Of a stretch of 33,635 nucleotides of DNA, positions 295 to 14,776 are shown piece after piece; the first letter of the stretch is position 1; each line of letters opens with the position of its first letter. The position numbers and the translations under genes are program-made. The notes under the pieces were generated by a model. That model was not told where the DNA came from. It worked only from the letters and a program-made list of their open reading frames with translations, and did not search any database. The stretch is from Myxococcota bacterium (GTDB taxonomy: Bacteria > Myxococcota_A > UBA9160 > UBA4427): contig CAUJGH010000461.1 of NCBI GenBank assembly GCA_963169575.1, forward strand, positions 1 through 33,635, written 5' to 3'.

Positions 295-891
295 TCAGAG
301 GCCCGCGAGCCAGCGTCGATACGACGCGAGGCTGAGCGCGAGATCGGGCGGCGGCGTCGCGGCGCTTCGAAACGATCGCTCGACGAAGTCGATCGCCTGC
401 GCGGCCTGCTCGCGCGTCGGGGCTGCGCCGACGTCGCGGCCGCCCATCGGATGGCCGAGCGCGCTGCCGACCGCCGACTCGAGCTCTTCGCGCACCGCCT
501 CGCGCGGTCGCGCGCCGACCTGGGCCGCCCAGGCGACGAGCCCCTCGACGAGCTCGGCGAGCGATCGCGGATCGGTCTGGTCGATCGGGAGGTCCGCCTC
601 GTTCCAGCCGATCATGCCGCCCGTCAGGTTCGCGACGGGCCCGAAGCCGCGGGCCGCGAGGAGGTCGCAGGCCTTCCGCGAGCGGACGCCGGAGCGGCAG
701 ACGAGCAGGAGCGCTCTCCCCGTCGGCAGCTCGGCTGCGCGGGCCTCGAGCTCGGGCAGCGGCAGCAGGGCCGCGCCGGGCACGCGGCCGAGCGGGCCGT
801 GGTATTCGTGGGCGCCGCGGACGTCGACGACGACGTAGTCGTCGAGGCGCACATGGGCTTCGCGGGGCGTGAGTTCGTGATGGGCGCTCAT
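295..891 (-). CDS. Rhodanese-like domain protein
   Basis: MSAHHELTPREAHVRLDDYVVVDVRGAHEYHGPLGRVPGA...LLLVCRSGVRSRKACDLL...LTGGMIGWNEADLPI; CRSGVRS is a rhodanese active-site loop. ATG overlaps the upstream gene's TGA (ATGA). Confidence 0.9.
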   Translation of the reverse strand: MSAHHELTPREAHVRLDDYVVVDVRGAHEYHGPLGRVPGAALLPLPELEARAAELPTGRALLLVCRSGVRSRKACDLLAARGFGPVANLTGGMIGWNEADLPIDQTDPRSLAELVEGLVAWAAQVGARPREAVREELESAVGSALGHPMGGRDVGAAPTREQAAQAIDFVERSFRSAATPPPDLALSLASYRRWLAGL

Positions 892-1754
892 CGGCCGCAA
901 CCTCCCCCGAACGCGTCGAGCGGGATCTTGAGATAGGCGATGCCGTTCGCAGCGGGCTCCGGCAGCTCGCCCGCGCGGATGTTGACCTGGATCGAGGGGA
1001 GGATCAGCGCGGGCGCGTCGAGCTCGGCGTCCTTCTTCTCGCGAAAGGCGACGTACTGCTCGCGGGTCGTTCGCGCGTCGATCTGGACGTTCTGCCGCTT
1101 CTGCTCGCCGACGGTCGTCTGATAGGCGAGCGGGCGGCCGCCGGGGAGATAGTCGTGGCAGACGAAGAGCCGCGTCGCGTCGGGCAGCGCGTAGAGGCGC
1201 TGGATCGAGTCGAAGAGCGTCGCCGCCGAGCCGCCGGGGAAATCGCAGCGCGCGGAGCCGTAGTCGGGCATGAAGAGCGTATCGCCGAGGAAGACGGCGT
1301 CGCCGATCTTCCACGACATGTGGGCCGGGGTATGGCCGGGCGTGTGCATCGCCTCGAGCGCGAGCGATCCGAACTCGAGACGCATGCCTTCGTCGATCAG
1401 GACGTCGAACGGACGGCCGTCGACGGGAAAGGCGTCGCCGAGATCGTAGACGTCGCGGAAGACGCGCTGGATCTCCCCGATCCGCGCGCCGGTCACGCTC
1501 TTCGCGCCGTAGCGGTCCTTGAAGAACGGGATGCCCGTCATGTGATCGGCATGGGCGTGGGTGTCGACGACGTAGGGGACCGTGAGCTTCTCCTGCGCGA
1601 GGTAGGCAGCGACCTCTTCCGACGAACGCCACGACGTCCGCCCGCTCTTCGGATCGTAGTTGCGCACCGGATCGATGACGACCGCGACCCGCCCGGCATG
1701 GACGACGTAGGTCAGCGTCCACGTCTGCTCATCGAAGAAGGCCCGGATCTCCAC
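888..1754 (-). CDS. MBL-fold metallo-hydrolase, persulfide dioxygenase-like (ETHE1/Blh type)
   Basis: THAHADHMTG, HTPGHTPAHMSW, GDTLFMPDYGSARCDFPGGSA and CHDY motifs; GTG start proposed at 1754. Confidence 0.88.
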   Translation of the reverse strand: MEIRAFFDEQTWTLTYVVHAGRVAVVIDPVRNYDPKSGRTSWRSSEEVAAYLAQEKLTVPYVVDTHAHADHMTGIPFFKDRYGAKSVTGARIGEIQRVFRDVYDLGDAFPVDGRPFDVLIDEGMRLEFGSLALEAMHTPGHTPAHMSWKIGDAVFLGDTLFMPDYGSARCDFPGGSAATLFDSIQRLYALPDATRLFVCHDYLPGGRPLAYQTTVGEQKRQNVQIDARTTREQYVAFREKKDAELDAPALILPSIQVNIRAGELPEPAANGIAYLKIPLDAFGGGCGR

Positions 1755-1906
1755 CTCGCTCCCCCCTGCCCCGCGCCGCTCGAGCGCGCCCGATCTTCGT
1801 CCCCGTCGCCCGGCCGAGCGGGGCGGGCCGAGCCGGTCGCCCCGGAAAATGGACCGCTCCCGCGGCGCCGTACCGCCCCATTGCGACGAAGGCCTCGCCT
1901 CTCTAA

Positions 1907-1942
1907 TGTGAACTGCGTTCACAATTATTGAGGAGCCTCAAT
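1907..1942. promoter_or_regulatory. Two adjacent perfect palindromes in the divergent promoter region (candidate TetR-type operators)
   Basis: TGTGAAC-TGC-GTTCACA (1907-1923) and ATTGAGG-AG-CCTCAAT (1927-1942). Confidence 0.6.
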
Positions 1943-2712
1943 TGGACCGCCAGAAGCTGAACGCCCTCTTCGACATGACCGGCCGCGTCGTCCTCGTGAC
2001 CGGCGGGACGCGCGGGATCGGCCGCTCCCTCGCAGAAGGCTACGTAGCAGCCGGGGCGAAGGTCGTCGTCGCGAGCCGAAAGGCCGAAGCCTGCGAGGAG
2101 ACGGCGAAGCATCTGCGCGGCCTCGGCGGCGAGGCGATCGGGGTTCCGACCCATCTCGGCGATCTCGATGCGCTCGGCCGGCTCGTCGAGCGCGCGGTCG
2201 CTGCGTTCGGCGGGATCGACGTCGTCGTCAACAATGCGGCGACGGCTCTCGCGCAGCCGGTCGGCGAGTACACGGCCGAGGCCTGGGCGAAATCTCTCGA
2301 CGTGAACCTGCGCGGGCCGGTCTTCCTCGCGCAGGCGGCGCTGCCTCATCTGAAGAAGAGCCGCCACGCGGCGATCCTGAACGTGCTCTCCGGCGCCGCC
2401 TTCCTCTTCTCCTCGCGCGTCTCGCTCTACGGCATCGGCAAGGCGGGTCTCATGTCCTCGACGCGCTCGATGGCGGCCGAGCTCGCGCCGTTCGGGATCC
2501 GCGTCAACGCGCTCTCGCCGGGGACGACCGAGACGGACATGGTGCTCGCGAATACCCCCGAGCAGCAGGCCGAGATGACGGCGATCCAGCTGATGCCGCG
2601 CATGGCCCATCCGGACGAGATGGTGGGGCCCGCGCTGATGCTCACGTCCGATGCCGGCAGCTTCATCACGGGGCATGTCGTCTTCGTCGACGGCGGGATG
2701 GTCCCGCGTTAG
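1942..2712 (+). CDS. SDR family oxidoreductase
   Basis: VTGGTRGIGRSLAEGY cofactor motif, NNAAT, S...YGIGK catalytic motif, C-terminal FITGHVVFVDGG; TTG start. Confidence 0.93.
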   Translation: MDRQKLNALFDMTGRVVLVTGGTRGIGRSLAEGYVAAGAKVVVASRKAEACEETAKHLRGLGGEAIGVPTHLGDLDALGRLVERAVAAFGGIDVVVNNAATALAQPVGEYTAEAWAKSLDVNLRGPVFLAQAALPHLKKSRHAAILNVLSGAAFLFSSRVSLYGIGKAGLMSSTRSMAAELAPFGIRVNALSPGTTETDMVLANTPEQQAEMTAIQLMPRMAHPDEMVGPALMLTSDAGSFITGHVVFVDGGMVPR

Positions 2713-2750
2713 GTCGATCGCGGTCGCGGGATCGCAGCGGAGGAGCGGCC

Positions 2751-3518
2751 ATGATCGAGAGCGCGATCCGGCGACCACCCGAGGCGGCCGAAGTCGCCGT
2801 CGCCTCGAGCGAAGAGGCGAGCGATGTCGTGGGCAGGGTCGCAGGCGATGTCGCGAGCGCCGCACCGGCGCGACGGGGGCGCCCGGCGCGGCTCTCGCGC
2901 CAGCGCATCCTCGACGCCGTCCTCGCAATTCTCGCGCGCGATCCGAAGACGGTTCCGACGATCTCGGCGATCGCGCGCGAGGTCGAGGCGGTCCCCGCCG
3001 CCCTCTATCGCCATTTCGAGAACCTCGAGGACATCTTCGACGGTGTGATGGCCGAGATCCTCGCGGCGAGCCCTGCGCAGGCGACCAGCGAGGCCCCCTG
3101 GCCAGCCCAGCTCGAAGCGTGGATGCGCGGTCTGCGCGCCCGGCTGCTCCGCCATCCCGCGATCCTCGCGATGATCGGGCGCTCGGGCCGGACCTCGCCC
3201 GCCTGGCTCGAGGCTTCGTCCGCGCTCGTCGAGATCCTCGGCCTGGCTGGGCTCGCGGGGCGCGAGCTCGCAGCCGCCTATCTCTGGCTGCTCGAGACGA
3301 CGGTCGGCCTCGTCCTGCAGGAAGCCATGATGCCGCTGCCCGAGCAGATCGCGAACGCGCGCGCCGCGCGGCATGCATTCTCGCCCGCAGCACGCCGGCG
3401 ATTCGCGCCGATCGCGCGCGAGATCGAAGAGGTCGGCGGCGAAGAATTCTTCGATTTCGCCGTCGCCCAGGCCATTGCCGCGATCGGGCTGCTCGCCCGA
3501 TCCGAATCCGAGGAATAG
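2751..3518 (+). CDS. TetR/AcrR family transcriptional regulator
   Basis: LSRQRILDAVLAILARDPKTVPTISAIAREVEAVPAALYRHFENLEDIFDGVMAEILA is a TetR-like HTH. Confidence 0.85.
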   Translation: MIESAIRRPPEAAEVAVASSEEASDVVGRVAGDVASAAPARRGRPARLSRQRILDAVLAILARDPKTVPTISAIAREVEAVPAALYRHFENLEDIFDGVMAEILAASPAQATSEAPWPAQLEAWMRGLRARLLRHPAILAMIGRSGRTSPAWLEASSALVEILGLAGLAGRELAAAYLWLLETTVGLVLQEAMMPLPEQIANARAARHAFSPAARRRFAPIAREIEEVGGEEFFDFAVAQAIAAIGLLARSESEE

Positions 3519-3523
3519 TCCCG

Positions 3524-4582
3524 ATGGACATCGAACGCGCGAAGATCCTGCGCCCCGTGGCCGAGCCCCGCATCGTCGAGCGGATCTATTCGGACGATCA
3601 GCACGCCCGGCTGCTCGGCGTCGTGAAACAGAACGGCCCCTGGCCGCTCATCCTCGCCCACCACTTCAAGAACGCCGAGGAGCTCATCGCGACGACGTCC
3701 GGGATGATCCCGGAAGGCGTCGAGCCGAAGCTCGAGATGTTCCTCAGCCCGGTCTTCCGCGGCTTCCTCTCCTACGACAAGGTCTGTCTCTACCCCGAGA
3801 TCCAGGACTGCTTCTACGCCCCGCGCATGCTCGATCTCGTGCGCGCCTACTGGGGCGCAAAATACGCCGAGCCCGACGGCATGCTCTTCAACATCCAGGG
3901 CCCGTGCGCGGGCGGCGGCTCGCCGCATGTCGACGCGACCCGCTTTCGCGGCATCACGCTCGAGAACACGCCCGTCTGGCTGATGAACACCATGGTGAAG
4001 ACCGGCCTCTTCGAGCGCTGGCAGGCCCGCAAGGCCCAGGTCATCGCCTGGTACTACAAGGGCCGGATCGGCGGCGGATTCACCTACTGGCCGGACGGCC
4101 CCCACGAACGACCGAAGCAGCTGCGCGCCCCGATGTGGGGCCGCGCCGCCGTCGTCGAGAACGAGATGATGTTCCATACGGCCGAACCCTGTGGCCCCGC
4201 CGATCAGCGCATGCCCGCCGGACTCGGCTTCGACTCCTTGATGGGCCCGGACCCCGAGCGCGATGGCGCCTGGCAGATCACGACCCGCGGCGAGGTCATC
4301 CAGCGGATTCCGGAAGAGGAGTTCCGCTTCCTCGTCCATTGGGGCGCATCGGTCTACCGGGATCTCGACGAGCTGAAGACCGCGATCGACCACACCGACG
4401 ACCTCTCCCACGACCGGATCTTCGAGATCCTGCTCGCCGATCTCGCGACGCGGGGCGTGCCTTGCGAGACGCCCTCCGACCCGATGAACGACAGGCGCTT
4501 CATCGCGCTGCTGAACGATGTCTACGGCATCGATCGCCCGCTGCATTTCCCGCCGGAGCCCGAAGAGCGACTCGCGGGCTGA
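3524..4582 (+). CDS. Uncharacterised protein, possible Fe(II)/2OG (PhyH-like) oxygenase
   Basis: 352-aa ORF immediately after TetR (5-bp gap); contains GGGSPHVDATRF (HxD) and a later MMFHTAEP histidine. Family not certain. Confidence 0.7.
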   Translation: MDIERAKILRPVAEPRIVERIYSDDQHARLLGVVKQNGPWPLILAHHFKNAEELIATTSGMIPEGVEPKLEMFLSPVFRGFLSYDKVCLYPEIQDCFYAPRMLDLVRAYWGAKYAEPDGMLFNIQGPCAGGGSPHVDATRFRGITLENTPVWLMNTMVKTGLFERWQARKAQVIAWYYKGRIGGGFTYWPDGPHERPKQLRAPMWGRAAVVENEMMFHTAEPCGPADQRMPAGLGFDSLMGPDPERDGAWQITTRGEVIQRIPEEEFRFLVHWGASVYRDLDELKTAIDHTDDLSHDRIFEILLADLATRGVPCETPSDPMNDRRFIALLNDVYGIDRPLHFPPEPEERLAG

Positions 4583-8466: not shown

Positions 8467-8931
8467 ATGGCCCGCACCCGCGTCTTCGTAAGCTTCGATC
8501 GAGAGCACGACGCCGATCTGGTCGCGCTGCTGCGCTCCCAGGCGAAGCGATCGGATTCGACCTTCGAGATCGTCCCGAACGCCGCCGGCGCTCCGCGCGA
8601 TGACGTCGGAAACGATGCCTCCTGCAACACAGCCAGCGACGCCGCGCGAGCGGCGATCCAATCCGCCGACGAAGTCGTCGTGATCTGCGGCGAGCATTCG
8701 TGCGACTCGAAGCGCATGGCCTCCGAGCTCGGCATCGCCCGCGAAGAATCGAAGCCGATCCTGCTCCTCTGGGGTCGCCGCGAGAAGATGTGCACCAAGC
8801 CCGAAGGCGCGACCGCCGCCGACGCGATGTACAGCTGGACGCGCGACGTCCTCGAGCGCCAGATCTCGTTCGTGCTGCAGAACGCGAAGCCCCGACCGAT
8901 CCCCGAGAACTGCAAGCGGATGCAGGGCTGA
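8467..8931 (+). CDS. TIR-like domain protein (MTH538 / Thoeris ThsB-like fold)
   Basis: RVFVSFDREHDADLVALLRSQAKRSDSTFEI...AAIQSADEVVVICGEHSCDSKRMASELGIAREESKPILLLWGRREKMCTKPEGATAADAMYSWTRDVL resembles the MTH538 TIR-like family. Confidence 0.83.
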   Translation: MARTRVFVSFDREHDADLVALLRSQAKRSDSTFEIVPNAAGAPRDDVGNDASCNTASDAARAAIQSADEVVVICGEHSCDSKRMASELGIAREESKPILLLWGRREKMCTKPEGATAADAMYSWTRDVLERQISFVLQNAKPRPIPENCKRMQG

Positions 8932-9153: not shown

Positions 9154-10362
9154 ATGCGCTCGATTCTCGTTCGAACCCGCCCGCCGCTCTGGCTCCTGAT
9201 GCTGCTCGCGACGGCCAGCCCCGTCTCCCTGCTCCTCTTTATTCCGGCCCTTCCATCGATCGCGCATGCGCTCGGCGCCGGGCTGGGCGAAGTGCAATGG
9301 CTGATCACGGCGTTCCTGCTCTCGGTCGGATCCATGCAGCTGTTGATCGGCCCGCTGGCCGATCGGCTCGGGCGCCGCGCCATCGTGCTCGTCAGCCTGG
9401 TCTGCCTCGCCGCGATCAGCCTCTTCGCGATGACGGTCGAGGACATCCGTCTGATGATCGCGTGCCGGGTGATCCAGGCGGTCTGCTCGGCGGCCCTCAG
9501 CGTCGTCTCTCGAGCCGCGGTACAGGACGTGTTCGACGGCGTCGAAGCCGGCCAGGCGATGTCGCTGATCACCCTGTCCCTGCAAGTTCCGGCCTTCGCG
9601 GCTCCCGTGATCGGCGGGCTCCTCGTCCAGCATCTCGGCTGGCGCTCGTTGTTCGGGTTCATGGCGGCCTCGGCGATCGCCTTGTTCGGCCTCGCCTGTG
9701 TCTATCTGAGGGAGACGAAGTCCGCGGAGCTGCGGGAAGACGCGGCAGCAGGGCGAGCGTTCGAGGCGTACGGGCGCTTGATCGCCAACCCGCAGTTTTC
9801 CCGGAACGCGGCGATCCTCGCGCTCTGCGCCGGAGCCTCGATGACGTTCCTGACCGTGCTCCCGTCGGCGCTCAGCGATCTGTTCGGCAAGTCGGCCGAC
9901 GAGGTCGGGCTCTACGCATCGGCGAGCTCGGTGGCGTCGATCCTCGGCGCCTTGATCGCGGCCCGACTCGTGGTCCGTCTGGGCATGACGAAGCTGATGG
10001 CCGTCAGCCTTGCTGGGGTCTCGGCCTACCTCGCGGCGTATGTGTCGCTGCTCGCGATCGTTCCCCTGACGGTGATCAATCTGCTGCTGGCCCTGCTCGT
10101 CGTGTCGTTCTGCCAGTCGATCGTGGTCTCGATGGGCTTCGCAGAGGCGCTGAGCGCCGACGATCGATTGCGGGGGACGGCTTCCGGCTTCGCCGGCGCG
10201 CTCGCATCCATCGCTTCGGCCTCGTTCGCCGCGCTCGGCGCGATGTCGTATGCGGCAGGTCCCGTGCGGCCCCTGCTGATCGTCTTTGCCTGCTTCGTTC
10301 TCGCGCTAGTCGTTCTCGCCGTTCATGCCGCCCGCCCTCATCGGGATCGGGATGCGAACTGA
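9154..10362 (+). CDS. MFS transporter (Bcr/CflA-like drug efflux)
   Basis: Multiple TM segments; GPLADRLGRRAIVLVSL motif after the second TM helix; Bcr/CflA-like N-terminus FIPALPSIAHALGAGLGEVQWLITAFLLSVGSMQLLIGPLADRLGRR. Confidence 0.9.
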   Translation: MRSILVRTRPPLWLLMLLATASPVSLLLFIPALPSIAHALGAGLGEVQWLITAFLLSVGSMQLLIGPLADRLGRRAIVLVSLVCLAAISLFAMTVEDIRLMIACRVIQAVCSAALSVVSRAAVQDVFDGVEAGQAMSLITLSLQVPAFAAPVIGGLLVQHLGWRSLFGFMAASAIALFGLACVYLRETKSAELREDAAAGRAFEAYGRLIANPQFSRNAAILALCAGASMTFLTVLPSALSDLFGKSADEVGLYASASSVASILGALIAARLVVRLGMTKLMAVSLAGVSAYLAAYVSLLAIVPLTVINLLLALLVVSFCQSIVVSMGFAEALSADDRLRGTASGFAGALASIASASFAALGAMSYAAGPVRPLLIVFACFVLALVVLAVHAARPHRDRDAN

Positions 10363-11781
10363 TACGGCGGCTCCGTCCGGCCGACCGATGGGGCCGCGAA
10401 TCTGGAGCTTGATCCCGTCGGGATCCTGCAGCTCGACGACATTCTCCTCGAAGCGCTCGACCACGCCTTCGATCCCGAGCGCCCTAAGCGTCTTCGCGAC
10501 GGCCTTGCGCTCGAAGCCGACGACCTCGACGGCGAAATACGCTTCCGAAGAGCCGGTCTCGAGCGTCACCCGGGCCGGACCTGCCCGGAATGCGCGGGCC
10601 CGCCCGTCCGCGTCCGGGTCGGCGAGCAGCTCGCGGTAATAGTCGGCAGACGCTTCGAGATCCTTCGCCTCGAGCGCGACGTGCGCGATCCGGATCGTCT
10701 GGAATACGGCCGGACCGTGGATCGCGTCGAGCTCCTCGGCCGGGACGGCGTGGGCGAGTGCATCGAGGCGCTCCCAATAACCCTCCGGATCGGCATCGAT
10801 CTGGAGCAGGTTTCCGGCCGGGTCGCGCGCCCAGAAATCGGTCGCGATCTCGTAGCTCGCGAGCCGCTCGTATTCCCGATTCAGCGGCGCCAGCTTTCGC
10901 GCCATCTCCCCGGGTGAAATTCCGCCGAAATTGAAGCAGGGATGATCGAAACCCGGCGGGCCGTTTTCCGGCGATGCCAGCGAGATCGCGAGATAGCTGG
11001 CGCCCATGTGGACCCAATAATGCGGGCTCGGGACCGAGGTCGGATGGGCGACGATCGGCTGGGGCGGCTTCTTCGCCGCCGGCCCGAAGAGCTTCGCGTA
11101 GAACTCGCCCGATCTCTGCATGTCCGAGACGCGGATCGCGAGATGGTCGACACCGACGACGTGGGCCGGCTCCGCGCCGGTCGCGGCCCGGGCCGGCGCC
11201 GGCGACGGATGCCGATCGTCGACCCGGCGGAAGCCGTCCCGATTGGGCATGCGGACTCCGGCCAGGCGCTTCGCATCCAGCACGGCGTCCTGATCGACGA
11301 TCCCGTTCAGGGCGAGGATCCAGGCACTGACGGCGTAGACCTCGTCGTCGCTCAGCAGCCCAGGCGCCGGATACGGCATCGCCCGGCGAACGTAATCGAA
11401 GAGCGTCGTCGCGTACGGCCAGTAGCTCCCGACGGTCTTCACGGGCCTCGACGTCGCGAGCGTGTCGCGGCCGCCGACGAGCGCATCGTTCGTGCCGCTG
11501 CTTCCGTCGAGTCCGTGACAGGCGGCGCAGTGCTCGCGATAGATCGACTCGCCCCGACGAGCCGACCCGCTGCCCGGCGGCAGCCCGGTCCCGTCCGGGA
11601 GGATGACGGGCGGGCCGAGCGCGGCGGGGTCGAGCCGTGCTCCGAGGTCGGGCGAGCCGCCGCCCAGCAGCGCGAGGGCGAGCGCGCCGATCGCCGCGCG
11701 CAGCGCGAGACGGACCGTCGGGCGCGGGCGAGGACGAAGGCGATGCGAGAGGGCCGGTCGCTGGCGCTCAGGCTTCGACAT
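10306..11781 (-). CDS. SoxD-like c-type cytochrome with C-terminal tandem VOC (glyoxalase/bleomycin-resistance) domains
   Basis: Haem motif CAACH and SoxD-like KTVGSYWPYATTLFDYVRRAMP...DEVYAVSAWILALNGIVDQDAVLDAKRLAGVRMPNRDGF, followed in the same frame by VVGVDHLAIRVSDMQRSGEFYAKLF (VOC1) and IRIAHVALEAKDLEASADYYRELL (VOC2). Overlaps the soxC-like gene end by 14 bp. Confidence 0.87.
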   Translation of the reverse strand: MSKPERQRPALSHRLRPRPRPTVRLALRAAIGALALALLGGGSPDLGARLDPAALGPPVILPDGTGLPPGSGSARRGESIYREHCAACHGLDGSSGTNDALVGGRDTLATSRPVKTVGSYWPYATTLFDYVRRAMPYPAPGLLSDDEVYAVSAWILALNGIVDQDAVLDAKRLAGVRMPNRDGFRRVDDRHPSPAPARAATGAEPAHVVGVDHLAIRVSDMQRSGEFYAKLFGPAAKKPPQPIVAHPTSVPSPHYWVHMGASYLAISLASPENGPPGFDHPCFNFGGISPGEMARKLAPLNREYERLASYEIATDFWARDPAGNLLQIDADPEGYWERLDALAHAVPAEELDAIHGPAVFQTIRIAHVALEAKDLEASADYYRELLADPDADGRARAFRAGPARVTLETGSSEAYFAVEVVGFERKAVAKTLRALGIEGVVERFEENVVELQDPDGIKLQIRGPIGRPDGAAVSVRIPIPMRAGGMNGEND

Positions 11782-13012
11782 ACGTGTTTCCCACCTTCCC
11801 CGAGCGCGAAATCCGCCAGGCCTGGATCGCGTTGCAGTGATAGTTGAAGCTCGGGCCGTGCTCCGCGAGCCACGCGGGTCGCGACGGCTGAACCCGACCG
11901 GCGGAATCCGTCGCCCGGCTGAGAATCACGGATTCCTGCCCCTGCCATTCCCAGTCGAATCGGAAGCGGGTCAGGAAGCGATCGAGGACGACGCCGTCGA
12001 GCTGCGCGCTGCGCCAGCTCCGGCCGCCGTCGACCGAGACCTCGACCCCGCGGATCGCCCCAGCGCCGCTCCAGGCGAGTCCCTTGATCGCGTACCAGCC
12101 GGGCCCCGCCATCGCGAGGCCGGCCGCCGGATGCGTGATCACGGACTTGACGCCCATCGCGAAGCTGAACTGGTCCGCGATGCCGTCGGGCCGCAGATCG
12201 GTGTACTTCGACGTCTCCTCGCGCGTCATGGCCGGCTCGGACGTGAGCGTGATCTCGCGCAGCCACTTGACCTGGATGTTGCCCTCCCAGCCCGGGAGAA
12301 GGAGGCGCAGCGGATAGCCGTTCTCCGGTCGCAGTCTCTCCCCGTTCTGGTAGAGCGCGATCATGCCGTCGTTCATCGCCTTCGCGAGGGGAACGCTGCG
12401 ATTCATGCGACCGGCGTCGGCGCCTTCGCAGACGAGCCATCGCGCGCCGGGCGCGAGCCCGGCTTCGCCGAGGAGCGTGCGCAGCGGAATTCCCGTCCAT
12501 TCGCTTCCGGAGACGAGTCCATGGATCTCGCCGCAGGTCTGTTCGACGGCGACGGGGGCGACCAGCGCGGCGCTGTTGCCCGAACACTCGAGGAAATGCT
12601 GCCGCGAGACGAGCGGGTAGCGCTTCAGATCGTCGACCCGGAAGGAGAGAGGCCGGTTCACCCGACCGCGGATCACGAGGCGGTGGGCGGAGGGATCGAT
12701 CTCGGGGACACCGCTGTGATGTCGCTCGAAGTGGAGCGAGGTAGGCGTGATCGTTCCTTCGAGCTGCTCGAGCGGAGTCCGCGAGGCGCCACTCGCTGGC
12801 GCACCCGGCATGGACACGAACCCGACACGACTGACGGCGGCTTCGAACGGTGATGGCGCCCCGTATCGGCTCGGCGGCGCACCGGGCGCTCGCGGCGCGG
12901 CGGCGCCGCCGGCCGGCCGCGCCCCGCTCGCCATCGCCGCCGGGGCCCCGATGGTCGCCGTGGTCAATGCGACCGTCGCCTGAAGAAAACGGCGGCGGGT
13001 CGTCGCGCTCAT
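11768..13012 (-). CDS. soxC: SoxC-like molybdopterin sulfite dehydrogenase, TAT signal
   Basis: TTRRRFLQATVALTTATI twin-arginine signal; HFLECSGNS Mo-ligand Cys motif; HGLVSGSEWTGIPLRTLL; YPLRLLLPGWEGNIQVKWLREI; NYHCNAIQAWRI. Confidence 0.9.
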   Translation of the reverse strand: MSATTRRRFLQATVALTTATIGAPAAMASGARPAGGAAAPRAPGAPPSRYGAPSPFEAAVSRVGFVSMPGAPASGASRTPLEQLEGTITPTSLHFERHHSGVPEIDPSAHRLVIRGRVNRPLSFRVDDLKRYPLVSRQHFLECSGNSAALVAPVAVEQTCGEIHGLVSGSEWTGIPLRTLLGEAGLAPGARWLVCEGADAGRMNRSVPLAKAMNDGMIALYQNGERLRPENGYPLRLLLPGWEGNIQVKWLREITLTSEPAMTREETSKYTDLRPDGIADQFSFAMGVKSVITHPAAGLAMAGPGWYAIKGLAWSGAGAIRGVEVSVDGGRSWRSAQLDGVVLDRFLTRFRFDWEWQGQESVILSRATDSAGRVQPSRPAWLAEHGPSFNYHCNAIQAWRISRSGKVGNTYVEA

Positions 13013-13247: not shown

Positions 13248-13910
13248 ATGCCCGATCTCGACCCCCTCTCGAACCCGAAGACCGCACGCTGGGAGCGTCG
13301 GCGGCTCGAGATCCTCGCCGTCGCCGAGGCAGTCTTTGGCGAGAACGGCCTGGCCGGCGCCCGGCTCGAAGAGGTCGCCCGCCGGCTCGGGATGCGCCGG
13401 CCCTCGCTCCTCTACTACTTCGCCGACAAGGACGCGCTCTACGACGCGGTCTTCGCCGACATTCTCGACGCGCTCCGCTCGCGCATCGAGGCGGCGCGCT
13501 CGGCCGACGATCCGATGGCGCGCATGGAGGCGATCGCCTCCGCCTGGGTCGACTTCCTGAGCCGGCGTCCCTGGGCGGCCCGCATCCTGCTGCGCCAGAT
13601 CGCGGACGAGCTGCCCCCCCGCAGCAGCAGCGTGCAGACGCGCTCGGAGCAGATCCTCGCGTCGGTGCGCGAAGAGATCGAAGAAGGCGTCGAGCTCGGG
13701 CTCTTCAAGCCGATCGACGCGGGCGTCTTCGCGACGGCGATCGCCGGCACCTCGATGTTCTGGGTCACGGCGCAGCCCGTCGTCGAACGATCGCTCGGCT
13801 TCGATCCCCTCGCGCCCGAATCGCTCGAACGCTTCCGAGAGGTGCTCGTGCTCCTCACGCGTCAGATGCTGGGCGCCGGCGACGGCCATTCCGAAAGGAG
13901 TCGATCATGA
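13248..13910 (+). CDS. TetR/AcrR family transcriptional regulator
   Basis: RRLEILAVAEAVFGENGLAGARLEEVARRLGMRRPSLLYYFADKDALYDAVFADIL HTH. Confidence 0.93.
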   Translation: MPDLDPLSNPKTARWERRRLEILAVAEAVFGENGLAGARLEEVARRLGMRRPSLLYYFADKDALYDAVFADILDALRSRIEAARSADDPMARMEAIASAWVDFLSRRPWAARILLRQIADELPPRSSSVQTRSEQILASVREEIEEGVELGLFKPIDAGVFATAIAGTSMFWVTAQPVVERSLGFDPLAPESLERFREVLVLLTRQMLGAGDGHSERSRS

Positions 13911-14776
13911 CCATCGAATTCGCTCCGCTCTGCGACGCGCTCGGCGCCGAGGTCCGTGGCCTCGACCTGAAGCGCCTCGACGACGCCGATCGCGCGCGAC
14001 TCGCAAAGGCCCTGCCCGAGAACGGCGTGCTGCTCGCCCGGGGTCTCGACCTCACGCCCGAAGATCACGTGACACTCACGCGTGTCTTCGGCGATCCCGA
14101 CATCCACCCGATCGAGGCAATCCGGCTCGAGGGCCACCCCGAGGTCATCGTGCTCGCCGCCGGCCGCTTCGATCAGATCCGCGAAGGCGACCCGGGCGCG
14201 GAGGATCTCGTCGGCCAGATCTCCTGGCATTCGGATCTGACCTATACCGCGTTCCCGAGCCGCGGCGCGCTGCTCTACGCCCGCACGATCCCGCCCGAAG
14301 GCGGCCAGACGGGCTTCATCGATCTCGCGAACGTCTACGACGCTCTCCCCGACGGGCTGAAGCAGCGGATCGAGGGCCTCGAGGTCGTCCACAGCCTCGG
14401 CCCCCTCCAGCAGGCGATCCACCAGGCCGCCTCGACGGACTACGCCCGCGATCCGGCGACCGTCCCGGACTTCGAGCCGGTCGTCCATCCGCTCGTGCAT
14501 CGCCATCCCGAGACCGGCCGCCGCGTGCTCGACATCAGCCCCGCCTTCGCGCAGTCGATCGTCGGCCTCGAGGAAGACGAGAGCGCAGAGCTCCTGCGTG
14601 AGCTGCGCGAGTTCGCGACGCAGCGGCGCTTCAGCTATTTCCATCCCTGGCAGGTCGGCGACCTGATCATCTGGGACAACTGGCGCACGATGCACGTCGC
14701 CACCGGTCACAAGCGTCGCCATCGCCGCGTCATGCACCGCACGACGCTGCGCGGCGGGGTGGCGCTCAGCGCCTGA
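13907..14776 (+). CDS. TauD/TfdA family Fe(II)/2-oxoglutarate dioxygenase
   Basis: ISWHSDLTYTAFPSRGALLYA (HxD), DLIIWDNWRTMHVATG (distal H), distal Arg region RRVMHRTTLRG; ATGA overlap with TetR. Confidence 0.93.
   Translation: MTIEFAPLCDALGAEVRGLDLKRLDDADRARLAKALPENGVLLARGLDLTPEDHVTLTRVFGDPDIHPIEAIRLEGHPEVIVLAAGRFDQIREGDPGAEDLVGQISWHSDLTYTAFPSRGALLYARTIPPEGGQTGFIDLANVYDALPDGLKQRIEGLEVVHSLGPLQQAIHQAASTDYARDPATVPDFEPVVHPLVHRHPETGRRVLDISPAFAQSIVGLEEDESAELLRELREFATQRRFSYFHPWQVGDLIIWDNWRTMHVATGHKRRHRRVMHRTTLRGGVALSA

Follow-up and report, generated by a model that had tools for sequence, protein, structure and literature searches.

A SoxD-type cytochrome c in frame with two VOC domains: a probable fusion gene of an orphan soxCD operon in a Myxococcota bacterium

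THE LOCUS

The window, a 33,635-nucleotide stretch of contig CAUJGH010000461.1 from a Myxococcota bacterium, carries a soxC gene followed by a soxD gene that runs on in frame into two vicinal oxygen chelate (VOC) domains. Divergent from this pair lie a regulator and a putative dioxygenase. The features are as follows.

10306-11781, minus strand: SoxD-VOC-VOC fusion gene, 491 aa (stop-free frame; Pfam cytochrome c and Glyoxalase domains)
11638-11781, minus strand: N-terminal Sec-type signal sequence (RLALRAAIGALALALLGGG), residues 1 to about 48 (read by eye from the sequence)
11230-11604, minus strand: SoxD-type monoheme cytochrome c domain, residues 60-184 (phmmer match to 2xts_B and to the SoxDs of the class)
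11515-11529, minus strand: CAACH heme-binding motif, residues 85-89 (the sole CxxCH of the protein)
11377-11379, minus strand: Met135 (RRAMP), presumed axial heme ligand (alignment; the ligand role is presumptive)
11161-11229, minus strand: Ala/Pro-rich linker, residues 185-207 (contains a G+C palindrome at 11175-11204)
10747-11160, minus strand: VOC domain 1 (VOC1), residues 208-345 (Pfam PF00903, alignment, AlphaFold2 model with Foldseek)
10393-10695, minus strand: VOC domain 2 (VOC2), residues 363-463 (weak Pfam match, FosA profile match, alignment)
11768-13012, minus strand: soxC, molybdenum subunit of a sulfite dehydrogenase/sulfane dehydrogenase, with a TAT signal (TIGR04555; 2xts_A)
13248-13910, plus strand: TetR-family regulator, divergent from soxC (PF00440, 46 bits)
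13907-14776, plus strand: TauD-family Fe/2-oxoglutarate dioxygenase, overlapping the tetR gene by 4 bp (PF02668, 215.6 bits)

The fusion gene is a single open frame of 491 codons with no internal stops. Its product consists, in order, of a signal sequence, a SoxD-type monoheme cytochrome c, an Ala/Pro linker, and two VOC domains. An initial annotation, made from the sequence alone, had proposed this in-frame arrangement, and its particulars held up: the CAACH motif, the stretches taken as typical of SoxD (SYWPYATTLFDYVRRAMP, and MPNRDGF at residues 178-184), the signal-like N terminus, and the 14-bp overlap with soxC, whose start we set by the TAT motif MSATTRRRFLQ. A Pfam search likewise agrees with a cytochrome followed by two VOC modules, the first clear and the second weak. 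Cytochrome_CBB3 (E = 8e-10) and Cytochrom_C (E = 9e-9) both match residues 73-158; Glyoxalase (PF00903) scores 35.6 bits against a cutoff of 20.6, in two stretches with the best at residues 211-279; and Glyoxalase_6 matches residues 368-458 below threshold. The domain identities and the open frame are solid. Given the signal-like N terminus, the VOC domains are predicted to be exported along with the cytochrome. The 3' end of the gene overlaps a convergent MFS gene (9154-10362, plus strand) by 57 bp (10306-10362).

WHICH KIND OF SoxCD?

The SoxC protein scores 522 bits against the TIGR04555 equivalog model (cutoff 420) and matches 2xts_A with an E value of 8e-98. The SoxD domain aligns over its length with Paracoccus SoxD, 2xts_B (phmmer E = 5e-35), and is 43 to 60% identical to 18 SoxDs of the class, among which Met135 is nearly invariant (from the alignment that combined the fusion, the SoxDs, and the VOC pair, only the SoxD columns were used, as the VOC row was misaligned). 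Three features identify it as a SoxD: its homology to the SoxD chain in 2XTS, its CxxCH motif, and its position directly after soxC. Both SoxC and the heme-1 domain of SoxD are thus homologous over the full domain length to the Paracoccus pantotrophus complex.

SoxDs come in two forms, however. Those of Sox operons are diheme, with an Ala/Pro linker ahead of the second heme domain, whereas those of orphan pairs are short and monoheme. The window protein has one CxxCH in 491 aa, compared with two in the SoxD of P. ferrooxidans. It shares with the latter an extra C-terminal domain behind an Ala/Pro-rich linker, but the addition is a second cytochrome c in the Sox-operon protein and two VOC domains here. 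Neither the carrier SoxY (PF13501) nor SoxB (TIGR04486), both needed for a complete Sox pathway, was matched in the window genome (G000, 86% complete) or in a sister metagenome-assembled genome (MAG) of the same genus (G002), while the same profiles detected both in a control relative (G043). Most relatives of the window genome likewise lack the two. With SoxB and SoxY absent from the genome, this is an orphan SoxCD rather than part of the Sox pathway, and the window gene is an orphan-type SoxD with VOC-VOC where the second heme domain would sit.

The closest parallels are the orphan soxC-cytochrome c pairs of Methylobacterium oryzae and of Caballeronia plasmids, in which a short, monoheme soxD comes after soxC and overlaps it, with no other sox genes adjoining. 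In M. oryzae the overlap is 14 bp, identical to that in the window. Unlike the fusion, these cytochromes are 180 to 202 aa long, end just past the MPNRDGF point, and lack a VOC tail. The initial annotation had taken that point as the place where SoxD normally stops, which is right for the short orphan type but not for Sox-operon SoxD, which continues through its linker into the second heme domain.

THE VOC DOMAINS

VOC1 belongs to the VOC superfamily both by its PF00903 score and by its fold: an AlphaFold2 model built from a deeper alignment (pLDDT 79) matched, in Foldseek, VOC enzymes that include methylmalonyl-CoA epimerase (TM 0.64) and the C-As lyase ArsI. Membership is weaker for VOC2, which has a profile match to FosA (E = 2.4e-4). 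A model of the whole VOC pair, built from two sequences, reached a pLDDT of only 41 and was discarded. Among the NCBIfam VOC families, none reaches its cutoff for the fusion protein; for ArsI/CadI (NF041414), VOC1 scores 21.3 bits.

Are these domains likely to be enzymes of a familiar kind? In the alignment, VOC1 keeps His213 and His280 and has Gln327 where its relatives mostly carry Glu. The metal triad of VOC2 is degenerate (His367, Tyr415, Gln460), and across the window genome and G002 the three sites hold His or Gln, Tyr or Phe, and Gln. The Gln noted earlier at the terminal metal-ligand site of each domain is real (Q327 in NLLQI, Q460 in IKLQI), which supports the altered metal ligands suspected then; VOC2 has lost the middle His as well. 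Neither domain has the His/His/Glu triad of Fe(II) extradiol dioxygenases. Because the terminal Glu is Gln in both and the triad is lost in VOC2, extradiol dioxygenase activity seems unlikely. Gln is a metal ligand in some VOC enzymes, such as human glyoxalase I and methylmalonyl-CoA epimerase, so it is possible that VOC1 binds a metal. The fusion is thus like methylmalonyl-CoA epimerase and ArsI in the modeled fold of VOC1, and like FosA in profile, but it differs from these and from the extradiol dioxygenases in having Gln for the terminal Glu and an exported cytochrome c as partner.

Judged from the comparison of the window genome with G002, both VOC domains are under purifying selection, with dN/dS values of about 0.16 for VOC1 and 0.29 for VOC2, next to 0.26 for SoxD; as dS exceeds 1, the ratios are rough.

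IS THE JOIN GENUINE?

The fusion comes from one MAG, 86% complete and in 668 contigs. Could soxD have been joined by misassembly to an unrelated VOC-VOC gene, or a stop codon have been lost to sequencing error? MAG data, the occurrence of the fusion in one genome only, and the G+C palindrome within the linker all lend this idea some weight. Yet the frame is open and GC3 stays steady at 0.85 to 0.93 across the linker. From codon 178, which lies in SoxD, up to codon 210 no frame contains an ATG, GTG, or TTG, and the earliest candidate VOC starts lie at or within the first VOC strand, so that a missed stop or frameshift would make the VOC part untranslatable. A search of the rest of the genome for junction repeats of at least 20 exact bases found none that could explain a misassembly. 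In addition, the VOC pair adjoins soxC and soxD in an independent MAG, although there too it begins at an abrupt and genetically implausible join, which suggests a region that is hard to assemble or tends to rearrange. On balance we consider an artifact improbable and the fusion probably genuine.

That independent MAG is G002, whose contig JAPYTP010000273.1 carries a VOC pair 64% identical to that of the window together with a partial soxC, a soxD, and a TauD gene (locus 1009-4240). Unlike in the window, soxD is separate, with a DMFA2-type gene (PF20254) directly after it, and the VOC pair abuts a truncated soxC in the opposite orientation. The TauD gene follows the VOC pair, and its product is 48% identical to the window TauD. 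Does this contig disprove the fusion? We rejected it for that purpose. Its soxC is cut at residue ~305, no further piece of soxC was found in the G002 genome, the VOC frame has no start codon before the first strand, and the homologies abut within ~6 bases. The contig itself is thus probably chimeric or the product of rearrangement, which disqualifies it as the unfused ancestor. It supports the association of the VOC pair with soxCD and TauD while neither proving nor disproving the fusion. The initial annotation had held that homologues always encoded separately would count against its reading; that point is half answered, in that the sole homologous VOC pair is unfused but startless on a rearranged contig.

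How widespread is the architecture? Eighteen other SoxD genes of the class stop no more than a few tens of residues away from MPNRDGF, near the start of the linker, and 41 plasmid records match the SoxD part only. No SoxD fused to VOC was present in any other genome or plasmid found in these searches, which bears out the earlier opinion that SoxD-VOC-VOC is not a standard architecture. The VOC pair itself turned up in one relative only, G002, in a scan of 85,000 genomes with two short peptide patterns and in profile searches of up to 379 Myxococcota genomes. Beyond G002, the phylum-wide searches returned only distant single-domain VOC genes, and no viral contig contained the pair. The papers searched contained nothing relevant on SoxD with VOC, or on VOC with periplasm and cytochrome c. 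The parts are ordinary, but the join is unusual and, among the genomes checked, unique so far.

VOC AND TauD GENES BESIDE soxCD

Gene calling and profile searches at 17 further soxCD loci in the class showed that VOC genes can also be separate neighbors of orphan soxCD. A stand-alone VOC gene immediately adjoins the pair in three loci: after soxC in G008, after soxD in G056, and before soxC in G253. These are 3 of ~28 available flanks, against about 0.17 expected from a background of 580 VOC matches per 99 Mb and an assumed gene density of one per 1.05 kb (P ~0.0007, or 3e-5 with the sister MAG added); the hypothesis came from the fusion, but the count is small. The VOC genes at these loci belong to different subfamilies. 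A first tblastn scan with the window proteins had missed the VOC and TauD neighbors because they are of other subfamilies. For the sampled orphan soxCD loci on plasmids of Pseudomonadota and Bacteroidota, an incomplete gene table shows no VOC gene next to the pair. Since separate VOC genes adjoin soxCD in relatives at a frequency above that expected by chance, VOC and SoxCD look like a working partnership.

TauD-family genes also recur near soxCD, in five loci from two phyla: the window, G002, G253, G192, and a Pseudomonas aeruginosa plasmid. The TauDs of G253, G192, and the plasmid form one family (33 to 67% identity), and those of the window and G002 another. The window protein can be called a TauD-family member only, since it scores 175.7 bits against the taurine dioxygenase model NF007104 (cutoff 313). 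The plasmid operon, in P. aeruginosa H15 (NZ_CP093017.1), reads TauD-sulfurtransferase-soxC-soxD-MFS-MFS-sulP and suggests that a TauD-SoxCD pathway has spread across phyla.

POSSIBLE FUNCTIONS

What might a cytochrome with a VOC tail do? Our best reading is a periplasmic molybdenum/heme oxidase whose cytochrome has gained a VOC module, with a link to organosulfur compounds or, in two relatives, to arsenic. In the model suggested by the gene neighborhoods, SoxC, a molybdenum enzyme exported folded by the TAT system, would oxidize a small sulfur oxyanion in the periplasm, most likely sulfite. Electrons would pass from SoxC to the monoheme SoxD domain and from there into the respiratory chain. 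Held on a flexible Ala/Pro linker where Sox-operon SoxD has its second heme domain, the tandem VOC module would be exported with the cytochrome and might serve the same organosulfur stream as an accessory that binds a substrate or a metal, perhaps as a lyase or isomerase. The divergent TauD-family dioxygenase would probably provide the cytoplasmic step, the release of sulfite from an organosulfur compound. We see about an even chance that the whole of this is correct, namely, a genuine fusion within an orphan soxCD operon whose VOC module is an accessory for the organosulfur substrate stream of SoxCD.

A periplasmic system for the oxidation of sulfur or organosulfonates had been suggested from the start. 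The sulfur or organosulfur part of that idea is plausible, given a genome without SoxB and SoxY and the recurrence of TauD-family genes next to orphan soxCD; organosulfonates are a candidate substrate only, and two loci in relatives speak for arsenic instead. In G253 (contig C279, 33-4230) the operon is TauD-ArsM (315 bits)-ArsI/CadI (184 bits)-soxC-soxD, and in G192 (contig C266, 4607-10116) the gene for the arsenite efflux protein ACR3 is divergent from ArsR-TauD-soxC-soxD. With ArsM and a true ArsI/CadI in the one and ACR3 and ArsR in the other, a link to arsenic is a live rival: orphan SoxCD with VOC and TauD would serve the detoxification of arsenic or of thio- or organoarsenicals, and the VOC pair would descend from an ArsI-like C-As lyase. 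The appearance of ArsI among the Foldseek matches of VOC1 is in keeping with this. Against it, VOC1 falls far below the ArsI/CadI cutoff (21 versus 116 bits) and has no terminal Glu and only one Cys, and no arsenic gene was recognized among the Pfam-scanned genes of the window. For the window we judge an arsenic role to be quite unlikely. Somewhat less so, though still doubtful, is the notion of a chance capture, with SoxD now tolerating the VOC pair as an inert tail in the periplasm, as the altered metal ligands in both domains and the restriction to one genome might suggest. The low dN/dS across both VOC domains and the recurrence of VOC genes beside orphan soxCD speak against an inert tail.

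Why does such a fusion deserve attention? Orphan SoxCD turns up repeatedly, in these genomes as well as on plasmids, without the remaining Sox pathway, and what it oxidizes is poorly defined. The fusion names VOC as a partner, and the VOC genes beside soxCD in relatives, with TauD in two phyla, turn this into a concrete pathway to test. If the fusion is real, VOC domains would work outside the cytoplasm, on a heme carrier. A bolder and rather speculative extension is that orphan SoxCD, VOC, and TauD make up an undescribed periplasmic-cytoplasmic module for the oxidation of organosulfur or organoarsenic compounds, here with VOC welded onto the cytochrome and the VOC reaction coupled to heme. 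We know of no described case in which a VOC reaction is coupled directly to heme.

Three further genes are of incidental interest. The G192 locus with ACR3 also carries a SoxH-like metallohydrolase divergent from ArsR-TauD-soxC-soxD. In the window, positions 888-1922 (minus strand) encode an MBL-fold protein whose nearest match is the sulfur dioxygenase portion of bifunctional Blh (318 bits, cutoff 625), and positions 8467-8931 (plus strand) encode a small protein carrying a TIR-like domain of the Thoeris ThsB type (PF08937, 29.5 bits).
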